NCBI GenBank assembly: GCA_937127125.1
Contig: CAKZLO010000013.1
Span: 1 to 64,000 of the forward strand
Length of the DNA stretch: 64,000 bases
From: an uncultured Ardenticatenia bacterium
GTDB lineage: Bacteria; Chloroflexota; Anaerolineae; 4572-78; NAK82
Direction of reading: 5' to 3'
The notes under the pieces are model-generated. The model was not told the DNA's origin. It worked only from the letters and a program-made list of their open reading frames with translations, and ran no database searches. Made by a program: the position numbers and the translations under genes. Numbering within the stretch: the first letter of the stretch is position 1; every line of letters begins with the position of its first letter. Shown one piece after another: positions 18,085-49,656 of this stretch.

Positions 18085-18119
18085 AGCCTCTGCCCGCGAC
18101 TTCATCGCAGACAGAGGCT
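18085..18119 (-). terminator. Intrinsic terminator of the fluoride riboswitch
   Basis: Minus strand: AGCCTCTG (18112-18119) pairs with CAGAGGCT (18085-18092), with an inner GCGA/TCGC, and runs into six T's. The 5' arm AGCCTC is also the pseudoknot strand of the aptamer, so the two folds exclude each other: a classic ON switch. Confidence 0.85.
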
Positions 18120-18170
18120 ATCAGCCGATCATTCGGCGGTTCGCTTACGCACAAGCGAGCCTCATCGCTT
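18112..18170 (-). promoter_or_regulatory. Fluoride (crcB-type) riboswitch
   Basis: The minus-strand RNA has P1 AAGC-GATGAGGCTC-GCTT (18153-18170), then P2 GCCGA-ATGA-TCGGC, then TGATAGCCTCTG. GAGGCT in the P1 loop pairs with AGCCTC as the pseudoknot. This matches the Thermotoga petrophila fluoride aptamer element by element (GCGAUGAGGC, hairpin, CUGAU, GCCUCU). An extra 5-bp hairpin (CGCTT/AAGCG) lies between P1 and P2. Fluoride binding should stabilise this fold and prevent the overlapping terminator. Confidence 0.85.
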
Positions 18171-18178
18171 GTACTCTT

Positions 18179-45880: not shown

Positions 45881-45909
45881 TTGACAAACGCGACTGGATA
45901 TGCTAAATA
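45881..45909 (+). promoter_or_regulatory. Promoter of the argCBDA leader transcript
   Basis: Perfect TTGACA (45881-45886), 17-bp spacer, TAAATA (45904-45909) preceded by TGC as an extended -10. Transcription would start near 45916, about 200 nt before argC. Confidence 0.7.
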
Positions 45910-45945
45910 TTATAACGTATTCAAGCGATTGTGAGTGCTTCTTCT

Positions 45946-46002
45946 ATGAGCAATACGTGCGTGCGTTTGCCCAGGGCGATCAGGAGCCGGCCAGACCGCT
46001 AG
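45946..46002 (+). CDS. Arginine-rich attenuator leader peptide
   Basis: 18 codons: MSNTCVRLPRAIRSRPDR, with arginine codons at 45964 (CGT), 45973 (AGG), 45982 (AGG), 45988 (CGG) and 45997 (CGC), then TAG. Five Arg in 18, including three of the rare AGG/CGG type, directly upstream of an arginine operon, is the hallmark of transcription attenuation by ribosome stalling. A possible GTG start in frame lies at 45931. The Shine-Dalgarno is weak. The stop codon lies in the CCAGACC/GGTCTGG hairpin. Confidence 0.7.
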   Translation: MSNTCVRLPRAIRSRPDR

Positions 46003-46034
46003 GTCTGGACAGGCCAGGCTTGCATTGGGCAACG
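45964..46034 (+). ncRNA. Arg leader stem-loops (attenuator control fold)
   Basis: Nested pairings: CGTTTGCCCA (45964-45973) with TGGGCAACG (46026-46034), one bulged T; AGCC (45985-45988) with GGCT (46017-46020); CCAGACC (45991-45997) with GGTCTGG (46002-46008). The whole 5' side is coding sequence of the leader peptide, so ribosome position would decide which pairings form. Confidence 0.55.
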
Positions 46035-46056
46035 GATGCCGTCAATCGTCCACAAG

Positions 46057-46089
46057 ACCAGCCTTCCAGATCAGGAGGGCTGGTTTTTT
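46057..46089 (+). terminator. Intrinsic terminator (attenuator) upstream of argC
   Basis: ACCAGCCTTCC (46057-46067) pairs with GGAGGGCTGGT (46074-46084), 11 bp with one G-T, followed by T84-T89. It lies between the arg promoter and argC on the plus strand; as the upstream gene runs the other way, it can only be an attenuator of the arg transcript. Confidence 0.85.
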
Positions 46090-46113
46090 ATATCGTATGT
46101 GGGGAGGAAAGGC

Positions 46114-47133
46114 ATGATCCGTGTGGGAGTCTATGGCGCGAGCGGCTACACCGGTTTCGAACTGCTGCGCATTTTGCGCCAGCACCCGCAGGTGGAGCTG
46201 GTCTTCGCTACCGCACAGAGCCATGCTGGCAGCTTGCTGTGTGATGTCTTTCCAGTGCCATGGGATATCCCGCTGATTGCCGAGGCGGATGCCGATCCCA
46301 GCACAGCCGATGCCGTGTTTTGCTGCCTGCCGGCAGGCAAGGCGATGGAAACCGTCACCCTTGCGCATCGCCACCAAGTGCGCGTTGTTGACCTCTCGGC
46401 TGATTTCCGCCTCACGGATGCGGATACCTATACGCAGTGGTACGGCCTCCCGCACAGCGCCCCCGAGCTGCTACCCTTGGCAGTGTACGGCCTGCCCGAG
46501 CTATATCGTCAGCAGATCAAAGGGGCATCCATCGTCGCCAACCCAGGTTGCTACCCCACCAGTGTGCTACTGGCGCTCTATCCCCTGCTCAGGGCGCAGC
46601 TGCTCGCGCCAGATCGCCCTATCATTGTGGACAGCAAATCGGGAGTGAGCGGTGCTGGCCGCAGCCCGACGCTCAAGACCCACTTCGTCGAGGCGAACGA
46701 AAATCTCTCGCCCTATAACATTGGGCGCAAACATCGCCATCTCCCTGAAATGGAGCAGGAGATCACACGTTGGGGCGGTCCATCCGGCCAGCTCATTTTT
46801 ACACCTCATCTGGTGCCGGTGAACCGGGGCATCCTCTCCACGGTATACGTGAGTGTGTCCGAGACACTCTCTGTGGATGCACTGCACAACCTGTTCCGTG
46901 AGACATATGCCGGGGAACCCTTCATTTGGGTGATGCCACCTGGGCAGCTCGCCACGCTAGCACACGCGGTATATACCAACAGTTGCGTTCTATCGCTCAC
47001 TCAGCCGTTGCCGGGGCAGCTCATCATCTGCTCCGCGATCGACAACCTTGTCAAGGGAGCTGCGGGACAGGCTGTACAGAACTTCAATCTGATGTTCGGT
47101 TTGGAGGAGACGACAGGGCTGATGATGCTATGA
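46114..47133 (+). CDS. argC: N-acetyl-gamma-glutamyl-phosphate reductase
   Basis: 339 residues, third enzyme of arginine synthesis: reduces N-acetylglutamyl-phosphate with NADPH. Seen: VGVYGASGYTGFELLRIL, the active-site Cys146 in VANPGCYPTSVLLAL, VDSKSGVSGAGRSP, and HRHLPEMEQEI with the catalytic His. The ATG at 46114 with GGGGAGGAAAGGC upstream is the start; the open frame continues upstream through the terminator to 46036. First structural gene of argCBDA, controlled by the leader described. Confidence 0.95.
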   Translation: MIRVGVYGASGYTGFELLRILRQHPQVELVFATAQSHAGSLLCDVFPVPWDIPLIAEADADPSTADAVFCCLPAGKAMETVTLAHRHQVRVVDLSADFRLTDADTYTQWYGLPHSAPELLPLAVYGLPELYRQQIKGASIVANPGCYPTSVLLALYPLLRAQLLAPDRPIIVDSKSGVSGAGRSPTLKTHFVEANENLSPYNIGRKHRHLPEMEQEITRWGGPSGQLIFTPHLVPVNRGILSTVYVSVSETLSVDALHNLFRETYAGEPFIWVMPPGQLATLAHAVYTNSCVLSLTQPLPGQLIICSAIDNLVKGAAGQAVQNFNLMFGLEETTGLMML

Positions 47134-47897
47134 TGATTCAAGTGCTCAAAGTTGGCGGCAACGAGCTGGACGATCCAGCCTTCATTGGGCAGCTGGTAGA
47201 GGCAGTGAAGCATCTGCCACAACCACCGGTCATTGTCCATGGGGGTGGCAAGGAAATCCGCGAGCTCCAAGAGAAGCTGGGTATGGAAGCACAGTACATC
47301 GACGGGTTGCGCATCACTGACGACGCCTCGCTGGAGGTAGTACAAATGGTGCTCTCCGGCCGTATCAACAAGCGCCTGGTGGCTGCCCTAGGCGCGATTG
47401 GCCTCGATGCCTTTGGCATGTCGGGCATCGATCGTGGTGCGGTGAAGGCAGAAAAGCTACACCACCCCGCCGGTGACCTGGGATGGGTAGGGCGTGTGGT
47501 TGCCGTGCGCGCGGAAGTTTTTCTCAATCTGCTGGAGAACGGGATCATCCCGGTGCTTTCTCCCATTTGTTTTGGGCCAGATGGTAGCATTTTCAACGTA
47601 AACGCGGATCACGTCGCCGAGGCAGTCGCCATCGCCCTGCAGGCGGACGAGCTGGTGTTCATCTCCAACGTACCCGGTGTGCTGGTAGAAGGCCAATTGG
47701 TCGAGCGCCTGGATGCCAAGCGGGCAGAGGCGTGGATCGCCAACGGCACAATCTCGGGCGGTATGATCCCGAAGGTGCACGCCGCGTCAGAAGCCGTCGC
47801 GCGCGGCGTGAAGGCGGTACGCATTACCAACCTGGAAGGATTGAAACATCAAGGCGGCACCCTAGTCATCAGTAACAGTGAGGCAGAAGCACAATGA
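47130..47897 (+). CDS. argB: Acetylglutamate kinase
   Basis: 255 residues, phosphorylates N-acetylglutamate. Seen: LKVGGNEL, IVHGGGKEI, the substrate segment YIDGLRITDDASLEVVQMVLSGRINKRLV, NVNADHVAEAVAIALQADELVFISNVPGV and SGGMIPKVHAA. The start ATG at 47130 overlaps the argC stop (ATGA), so translation is coupled. Lysine-pathway relatives (LysZ) look similar, but no lysW is present and the leader is arginine-rich. Confidence 0.92.
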   Translation: MMIQVLKVGGNELDDPAFIGQLVEAVKHLPQPPVIVHGGGKEIRELQEKLGMEAQYIDGLRITDDASLEVVQMVLSGRINKRLVAALGAIGLDAFGMSGIDRGAVKAEKLHHPAGDLGWVGRVVAVRAEVFLNLLENGIIPVLSPICFGPDGSIFNVNADHVAEAVAIALQADELVFISNVPGVLVEGQLVERLDAKRAEAWIANGTISGGMIPKVHAASEAVARGVKAVRITNLEGLKHQGGTLVISNSEAEAQ

Positions 47898-49120
47898 ACG
47901 AAACTGTGCAGCAACTCGTACCAACCGCAATCGCCTTGGAACGCCAGTACGTTCTGCAGACTTACCGTCGGCCTGATTTCGTGTTAGTGAGGGGAGAAGG
48001 CGTGCGCTTGTTTGACGAAACAGGGCGCGCTTATCTGGACGCAGTAGCTGGCATTGCCGTAAATGCGCTGGGCTATGGCGATCCAGAGCTCGTGGCTACG
48101 CTACGTGTGGCAGCGGAAGGGCTTATCCATGTCTCAAACCTGTACCACACCGAGCCCCAAGCACGCTTGGCACAAGCACTGGTGGAATGTTCCTTCGCCG
48201 ACCGTGTGTTCTTCTGCAACTCGGGCACCGAGGCGATCGAAGCCGCTCTAAAGTTCGCGCGCAAATATGCACGCCAACACTATGGAGCGCACAAGACGCA
48301 CTTCGTTGCATTCACCAACTCCTTCCATGGGCGCACTATGGGCGCGCTGTCCACCACAGCTACCGAAAAGTATCGTGCGCCGTTCGAACCGTTGGTGCCC
48401 GGCGTGCAGTTTGTGCCTTTCAACGATCTGCAGGCCGCTGAGCAAGTGATCACCGATCAGGTGTGCGCTGTGTTGGTCGAGCCGATCCAAGGGGAGGGCG
48501 GTATCCATCTGGCGACAATGGAATTCTTGCAAGGTCTGCGTACGCGATGCAACGAACAGGGTGCACTGCTCATCTTCGATGAGATTCAATGCGGATTGGG
48601 GCGCACCGGCACCTTGTGGGCACATGAGCCAGCAGGTGTGACACCGGATATGATGACGCTGGCCAAGCCGCTAGCAGGTGGTTTGCCCACGGGTGCTGTA
48701 CTTATGACCCAGGCGGTCGCGGACGCGATGGTGCCGGGCGATCACGGTAGTACGTTTGCCGCCGGACCGCTGGTTTGCCAGGTGGCGCAGGTAGTGTTCC
48801 GGCGCGTCAGCCAGCCAGAGTTCTTGGCTGAAGTGCGAGCCAAGGGAGAGTACCTCGCGGCACGTCTGGATCAGTGTATCCGCCCACATCGTCTGGTGCG
48901 TGGCGTGCGCGGTCGTGGACTGATGTGGGGCATCGAGTGCACTGTCGAGGCCACCGTCGTGGTCAACGCTGCCTATCGAAGAGATCTGCTCGTGTGTGCC
49001 GCAGGGACCCATGTGGTGCGTCTGTTGCCGCCGCTGATCATTACGCGCGCTGAGATCGACGAGATGGTGGACAAACTGGCAGCAACGCTGGACGATGTGG
49101 TGCAGGAGAGTGCACGGTGA
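47894..49120 (+). CDS. argD: Acetylornithine aminotransferase
   Basis: 408 residues, PLP-dependent class III aminotransferase. Seen: FFCNSGTEAIEAALKFARKYA, SFHGRTMGALSTTATEKYR, VEPIQGEGGI, LLIFDEIQCGLGRTG and the PLP lysine (about Lys258) in TLAKPLAGGLPTGAV. It overlaps argB by 4 nt (ATGA), again coupled. In organisms using lysine or other omega-amino acids the family is promiscuous, but the operon assigns it to arginine synthesis. Confidence 0.93.
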   Translation: MNETVQQLVPTAIALERQYVLQTYRRPDFVLVRGEGVRLFDETGRAYLDAVAGIAVNALGYGDPELVATLRVAAEGLIHVSNLYHTEPQARLAQALVECSFADRVFFCNSGTEAIEAALKFARKYARQHYGAHKTHFVAFTNSFHGRTMGALSTTATEKYRAPFEPLVPGVQFVPFNDLQAAEQVITDQVCAVLVEPIQGEGGIHLATMEFLQGLRTRCNEQGALLIFDEIQCGLGRTGTLWAHEPAGVTPDMMTLAKPLAGGLPTGAVLMTQAVADAMVPGDHGSTFAAGPLVCQVAQVVFRRVSQPEFLAEVRAKGEYLAARLDQCIRPHRLVRGVRGRGLMWGIECTVEATVVVNAAYRRDLLVCAAGTHVVRLLPPLIITRAEIDEMVDKLAATLDDVVQESAR

Positions 49121-49656
49121 ACGGGGATGTGATCGAGATCGTCCGGGCGAGCGTGCACGATGTGCCAGCTATTGCGGCGTTGGTGGAACGTTATGTGCGG
49201 CGCGGTGAGGTGCTACCGCGACCGCCGGAGGACATCTACCAGTCGCTGCGCGATTGGATAGTGGCGAAGCAGCATGGTGAAGTGGTCGGCTGCGGCTCAC
49301 TGGTCATCCTGTGGGCAGATATGGCCGAGATTCGGTCATTAGTTGTGGCGCCTGAGCGGCAAGGCATGGGCATCGGCCGCCAGATTGTCAGCGCTCTGCT
49401 TGCCGATGCTGCCGCACTGGAGATCCCGCGCGTGATCGCACTGACACGCAGGCCAGCTTTCTTCGCTAAGCTGGGCTTTGTCGAGGTGCCACGCGCGTCG
49501 TTACCGCGTAAGATTTGGAAGGATTGTATCCATTGCACCAAGTTTGCTGGCTGTGACGAAGTGGCAATGGTGTATCAGCTGCCGCTTCAAGCACAAGACC
49601 AGCACAATGCGACTTTAGCACGCGCAAAGGTAGCCATCTATGCTACGCGCGAATAG
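49117..49656 (+). CDS. argA: N-acetylglutamate synthase, GNAT type
   Basis: 179 residues, GNAT acetyltransferase: AEIRSLVVAPERQGMGIGRQIVSALLADA carries the acetyl-CoA site, and the C-terminal LPRKIWKDCIHCTKFAGCDEVAM is typical of the short ArgA found in mycobacteria and Chloroflexota. It makes N-acetylglutamate, replacing the large ArgA with an amino-acid-kinase domain. GTG start at 49117 overlaps argD (GTGA). argJ is absent, so the operon uses the linear pathway in this window. Confidence 0.85.
   Translation: MNGDVIEIVRASVHDVPAIAALVERYVRRGEVLPRPPEDIYQSLRDWIVAKQHGEVVGCGSLVILWADMAEIRSLVVAPERQGMGIGRQIVSALLADAAALEIPRVIALTRRPAFFAKLGFVEVPRASLPRKIWKDCIHCTKFAGCDEVAMVYQLPLQAQDQHNATLARAKVAIYATRE

Follow-up and report, generated by a model that had tools for sequence, protein, structure and literature searches.

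The window, a stretch of 64,000 nucleotides read here on its forward strand, belongs to a 3.7-Mb draft genome whose nearest named relatives are uncultured Anaerolineae/Ardenticatenia (ArgC 85% identical). It carries an arginine-synthesis operon in which argC (N-acetyl-gamma-glutamyl-phosphate reductase, 46114-47133) is the first gene and is followed by argB (acetylglutamate kinase, 47133-47897), argD (acetylornithine transaminase, 47894-49120) and, last in the overlapping cluster, a gene for a GNAT N-acetyltransferase (49117-49656). All four lie on the forward strand and scored above the NCBIfam cut-offs (TIGR01850, TIGR00761, TIGR00707 and NF005840, respectively); the last gene is probably argA, encoding acetylglutamate synthase. 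The operon is preceded on the same strand by a leader (45881-46113). A mobile or repeated element was considered and rejected, as BLAST showed the leader DNA to be single-copy in the genome, the remaining matches being short and due to chance.

The leader starts with a -35 element, TTGACA (45881-45886), followed after a 17-nt spacer by a weak -10-like element, TAAATA (45904-45909), both read from the sequence. The original prediction had described a good promoter: the -35 element and spacer are present, and the same layout recurs at equal distance in the argC leaders of relatives, but the -10 element is weak, and a strict promoter scan of the window did not list this promoter. The other predicted parts were all found in place. 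An ORF of 18 codons (MSNTCVRLPRAIRSRPDR) runs from the ATG at 45946 to a TAG stop codon at 46000-46002 and contains five Arg codons (CGT, AGG, AGG, CGG and CGC, at 45964, 45973, 45982, 45988 and 45997). The stems said to lie over this ORF correspond to a 7-bp hairpin between CCAGACC (45991-45997) and GGTCTGG (46002-46008); in the window leader this inverted repeat, CCAGACC-N4-GGTCTGG, is a perfect palindrome. Further downstream, an intrinsic terminator (46057-46089) with 11-bp arms (46057-46067 and 46074-46084) ends in a run of six T (46084-46089), and argC follows.

Folding of the leader revealed a second arrangement, absent from the original prediction. Strand 1 (CCAGACC, 45991-45997), identified from the fold and from the consensus helix of an alignment of leaders (A1), falls within the final codons of the ORF. 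Strand 2 (GGTCTGGACAGGC, 46002-46014), delimited by footprint folds and by duplex and permutation tests, has two alternative partners in the window leader, strand 1 and strand 3 (GCCTTCCAGATC, 46061-46072), the latter found by folding the RNA before the 3' arm of the terminator is made. As strand 3 shares nucleotides with the terminator's 5' arm and loop, the 2:3 helix (46002-46014 with 46061-46072) would act as an antiterminator. None of 200 dinucleotide shuffles of the 174-nt leader RNA folded as well as the leader itself (z -6.0), and the full leader free of ribosomes folds into the 1:2 hairpin plus the terminator. To represent translation, ribosome-covered RNA was folded prior to synthesis of the terminator 3' arm. 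In these footprint folds of the window leader, a ribosome at Arg13 or Arg15 gave the 2:3 antiterminator, a ribosome at Arg10 gave the 1:2 hairpin, and a ribosome at the stop codon hid strand 2 so that neither helix formed. Because the completed terminator is predicted to exceed the antiterminator in stability, the switch would depend on timing. A conserved TGGGC stretch 3' of strand 2 (window positions 46020-46045; alignment A1) is complementary to the control-codon region, and this complementarity suggests an extra hairpin that would close the leader when no ribosome loads.

Are the alternative helices maintained in evolution? In alignment A1 the terminator helix covaries: two-sided changes occur at 7 pairs out of a consensus of 13, for the most part terminator pairs. 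The core of the 2:3 helix is nearly invariant in this narrow alignment, which makes pair counting uninformative for it; a family-wide permutation was therefore used, in which strands were located by motif alone and, at family level, their pairing was compared with that of permuted partners. Strands 2 and 3 covary across 35 families, each represented by a single leader (mean z 5.0). Over 129 leaders, the 2:3 pairing of a leader with its own partner averaged -17.4 kcal/mol, against -14.3 kcal/mol with the partners of other leaders, and in 107 of 126 leaders it beat an upstream control stretch from the same leader. Covariation of the 1:2 helix is weak (5.55 versus 5.38 pairs).

Five Arg codons among 18 are weak evidence when taken from one sequence. 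Conservation of the ORF in relatives, which the original prediction had named as a check, was assessed by comparing argC upstream regions from genomes of the same genus out to the entire class. A scan found a terminator in 133 of 147 upstream regions and none in the other 14. An ATG-initiated ORF with at least three Arg in 8 codons was present in 82% of 129 terminator-bearing argC leaders, against 20% of shuffled sequences, and one with at least four Arg in 8 codons in 51%, against 5%. When all 20 residues were compared in these 129 leaders, Arg had a z of 15.7, the next being Pro at 7.6. Arg-rich leader ORFs thus precede the terminator and argC across the class, and this conservation takes the observation beyond chance. 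Within the genus the reading frame of the leader ORF is kept: silent changes are seen at several Pro and Gln codons, and three stop codons (TAG, TGA and TAA) occur at one and the same position. The Arg codons lie mostly 3-24 nt 5' of strand 1 (84 leaders from 25 families, in a measure whose choice of ORF favours Arg), a placement in which a stalled ribosome would cover strand 1 and free strand 2. The stop codon precedes strand 2 by at least about 10 nt in about 20 of these 84 leaders; in the window leader and many others a ribosome at the stop codon would mask strand 2.

Outside the class the picture is patchy. In the rest of the phylum, families f80 and f106 have Arg-rich leaders with terminators and other families are without. 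Of 60 argC upstream regions from other phyla, 17 have a terminator, and 2 of these 17 have at least three Arg in 8 codons. Two other arrangements were seen on the way. In family f75, which comprises large genomes of the same phylum, a T-box signature recognised by motif only, GGGTGGTACCGCG, lies upstream of argC (L294), which suggests that a different RNA device serves argC there. In family f70 (L245, L247 and L250), a conserved 28-codon ORF, MFTRILxFLRRLGQIHPAVIAIAPDRTW, lies about 55 nt before argC and has no terminator.

The original prediction had seen no argR, and this extends to the whole genome, in which no ArgR_C domain was found. ArgR (PF02863) was found in none of 61 genomes of the class, with 8 of 14 control genomes positive, and in 1 of 34 genomes from the rest of the phylum. 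Membership of an ArgR regulon was rejected, the repressor being absent from the genome. Control by a known riboswitch was likewise rejected, since no curated family matches the leader: at the gathering threshold nothing in Rfam 15 matched the window leader, and a search of ten argC loci with E up to 0.5 returned nothing except one weak chance match (L033). T-box control was excluded at this site because RF00230 does not match the leader and the only two T-box matches of the genome lie elsewhere, before trpE and a trpB-like gene (L325 and L326). From these T-boxes, the genome appears to use T-boxes for tryptophan and leader peptides for arginine and lysine. Elsewhere in the window, on the reverse strand, a fluoride riboswitch was matched at 18105-18178 (RF01734, 34.1 bits, just over the gathering score).

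The ORF with its codons, the three alternative helices, their geometry and conservation, and the lack of ArgR are all legible in the DNA, and the parts and the distances between them are, at this level of description, those of classical attenuation. The leader is very probably a ribosome-mediated transcription attenuator of argC-argB-argD-argA. We infer from its architecture that the ORF is translated, that ribosomes stall on it and in which direction the operon responds. RNA polymerase would transcribe the leader with a ribosome trailing on the Arg-rich ORF. When charged tRNA-Arg is scarce, this ribosome would stall at the Arg codons just 5' of strand 1 (Arg13 or Arg15) and cover strand 1; strand 2 would then pair with strand 3, the terminator would be blocked and argC would be transcribed. 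When charged tRNA-Arg is plentiful, the ribosome would reach the stop codon and cover strand 2, or leave so that the 1:2 hairpin forms; strand 3 would then pair with strand 4 and transcription would end.

The comparison of relatives supports the arginine attenuation proposed in the original prediction, but its restriction to arginine proved too narrow, as versions of the scaffold with Lys or Pro codons stand before lysine and proline genes. A covariance model built from 21 argC leaders only (R1) was run over 41 relatives and matched leaders of lysW, homocitrate synthase, proS and argG, mostly with E values of 1e-5 to 1e-12. A second model from which the codon region was left out (R2) found more sites than R1, with the same split between Arg, Lys and Pro. 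R2 had a significant match in 65 of 111 genomes of the class and none in 46; many of the genomes are incomplete. A subset of the R2 matches was inspected, and some of the weak ones are probably false (for example G031:C225, G022:C3:1710097, G022:C8 and G077:C19). The shared scaffold reads CC[AG]GACC-loop-GGTCTGGATAG followed, after an interval, by the CTCCAGACC terminator, and the leader peptides of the family often end in PDxxSG directly before the stop codon.

In the genome studied here, R2 gave exactly two significant matches, the argC leader and a Lys-type leader that the original prediction did not contain; no leader was found at the genome's own argG. The Lys-type leader (contig 15, 96150-96262, reverse strand), whose ORF reads MDVVSVPVLRIIKSKCTKKPDPGSG and then stops, precedes lysW-lysX-lysY-lysZ-lysJ-lysK-homocitrate synthase (named by NCBIfam, lysK by position and sequence). 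Directly upstream of this leader and its operon lies a gene for tRNA-Lys with anticodon CTT (CUU; L347, 2650-2725, contig 15), and a tRNA-Lys gene occupies the same place in a genome of the same genus (L350).

The elements were then grouped by their downstream gene, with NCBIfam names for representatives and the rest assigned by sequence or by operon order in relatives. Each of the 23 leaders scored before lysW or homocitrate synthase had Lys as the commonest of Arg, Lys and Pro, with an average of 3.5 Lys among 10 codons; the Lys codons were AAG in 76 cases and AAA in 4. Before proS operons, Pro was the commonest in 8 of 9, the ninth (L362) having been scored in the wrong frame; in three further leaders the script missed the ORF, and by eye these three and L362 carry the expected residue. 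Before argG or carAB, Arg was the commonest in 8 of 10, with one tie, and the carAB leader is mixed in Arg and Lys. Fisher tests between these groups gave P values of 1e-8 to 1e-13, which are indicative because related genomes are not independent. In footprint folds, the Lys and Pro leaders formed a stall-dependent antiterminator like that of the Arg leader. Several genomes have Lys-type attenuators in tandem before lysW or homocitrate synthase (L349, L361 and L439), and at one further locus (L445) a homocitrate-synthase-like (nifV-like) gene follows a divergent scaffold whose leader, MLAVLQPLPYKRPQPQPPKWAAG, is rich in Pro. Neither this leader nor the mixed carAB leader agrees cleanly with the codon pattern. 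Because a common scaffold bears codons for Arg, Lys or Pro in line with the operon, and because R2, built without the codon region, divides the sites in the same way, these leaders appear to form a homologous family of ribosome-mediated attenuators whose specificity is set by codon swap.

Three other explanations of the argC leader were weighed. Amino-acid-sensing arrest peptides exist, and free arginine might cause an Arg/Pro-rich nascent peptide to stall the ribosome from within the exit tunnel, in place of a stall through slow decoding of Arg codons. RRPRRRP-like stretches do recur in the leader peptides of some families, and Pro comes second to Arg in enrichment; this excess of Pro may partly reflect the coding of strand 1 and its flank. 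As the peptide sequence varies between families, which keep the number and position of Arg, and as the same scaffold is found with Lys or Pro in place of Arg, we regard peptide arrest as improbable. A riboswitch or an RNA-binding protein that senses arginine through the 1:2, 2:3 and 3:4 helices, the ORF being incidental, is a poorer candidate still. It would fit the strength of the RNA structure and the sequence of strands 1, 2 and 3, which is conserved beyond the needs of pairing, but it is hard to reconcile with the empty Rfam searches and with a reading frame that persists through changes of stop codon; moreover, the cognate codon follows the operon while the scaffold stays constant, so that no single aptamer explains the family. 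Least credible of all is the reading of the perfect palindrome as a DNA operator for some other arginine repressor, free to act where ArgR is absent, next to a constitutive terminator: a third, complementary copy within the terminator covaries with strand 2, the in-frame Arg codons lie at a near-fixed distance, and the palindrome recurs at lys and pro operons.

Ribosome-mediated attenuation thus remains our reading of the argC leader, and for the family as a whole we think it likely that one ancestral attenuator was copied within the Chloroflexota and re-programmed through the control codons 5' of strand 1 alone, yielding sensors of charged tRNA-Arg, tRNA-Lys and tRNA-Pro. If this is true, these leaders would constitute a homologous set of leader-peptide sensors, a T-box counterpart built on leader peptides, in a phylum whose searched genomes almost all lack ArgR, and they offer a possible answer to how arginine synthesis is controlled in Chloroflexota that lack ArgR. 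Arginine, lysine and proline-tRNA-synthetase genes would join the likely targets of leader-peptide attenuation. Textbook accounts usually present the attenuators of different amino acids as separate inventions; here the codons on a single RNA scaffold, Arg, Lys or Pro, go with the operon that follows, and such a chassis permits codon swaps by which the rule that the codon sets specificity becomes directly testable.

The mechanism itself is already known; it is the re-coded scaffold that looks new. Full-text searches of the open literature, whose coverage is incomplete, returned no report of an Arg, Lys or Pro leader-peptide attenuator at these operons, and none of any leader-peptide attenuator from Chloroflexi. 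The fungal AAP of arg-2/CPA1 resembles the argC leader as an upstream peptide of arginine biosynthesis; it is a eukaryotic arrest peptide that senses free arginine and acts on translation. For control at the RNA level, reports exist of T-boxes at arginine operons of other bacteria and of the L-box riboswitch for lysine (PMC1262725). In Salmonella, the speF leader contains orf34, and when arginine is low the decoding of two consecutive Arg codons in this ORF alters the mRNA structure (PMC6386406). It is like the argC leader in that an Arg-codon leader ORF is tied to mRNA structure, but it serves ornithine decarboxylase and acts by way of Rho, translation and RNase G, whereas an intrinsic terminator is present here; that paper reports no link between the speF leader and the argC-leader scaffold. 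Short ORFs with proline codons in the Salmonella mgtCBR leader also affect downstream transcription by attenuation (PMC3641672). Unlike the Pro leaders described here, they belong to an operon for Mg2+ transport and virulence, not to proS, and do not use the argC-leader scaffold.

The closest relatives in mechanism are the classical attenuators (trpL, hisL, leuL, pheL, thrL and ilv; for his, see PMC9413887), which share with the argC leader an ORF rich in codons for the product, the 1:2, 2:3 and 3:4 helices and an intrinsic terminator ahead of the first structural gene. The leaders described here differ from them in their Arg, Lys and Pro specificities, in their host phylum, the Chloroflexota, and in that one homologous RNA scaffold serves several amino acids with the control codons alone changed. 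In this last respect they resemble the T-box, likewise a single RNA scaffold re-targeted among amino acids by a codon-like signal; the T-box specifier is read directly by the tRNA, whereas the control codons of the present scaffold sit in an ORF that we propose to be translated.
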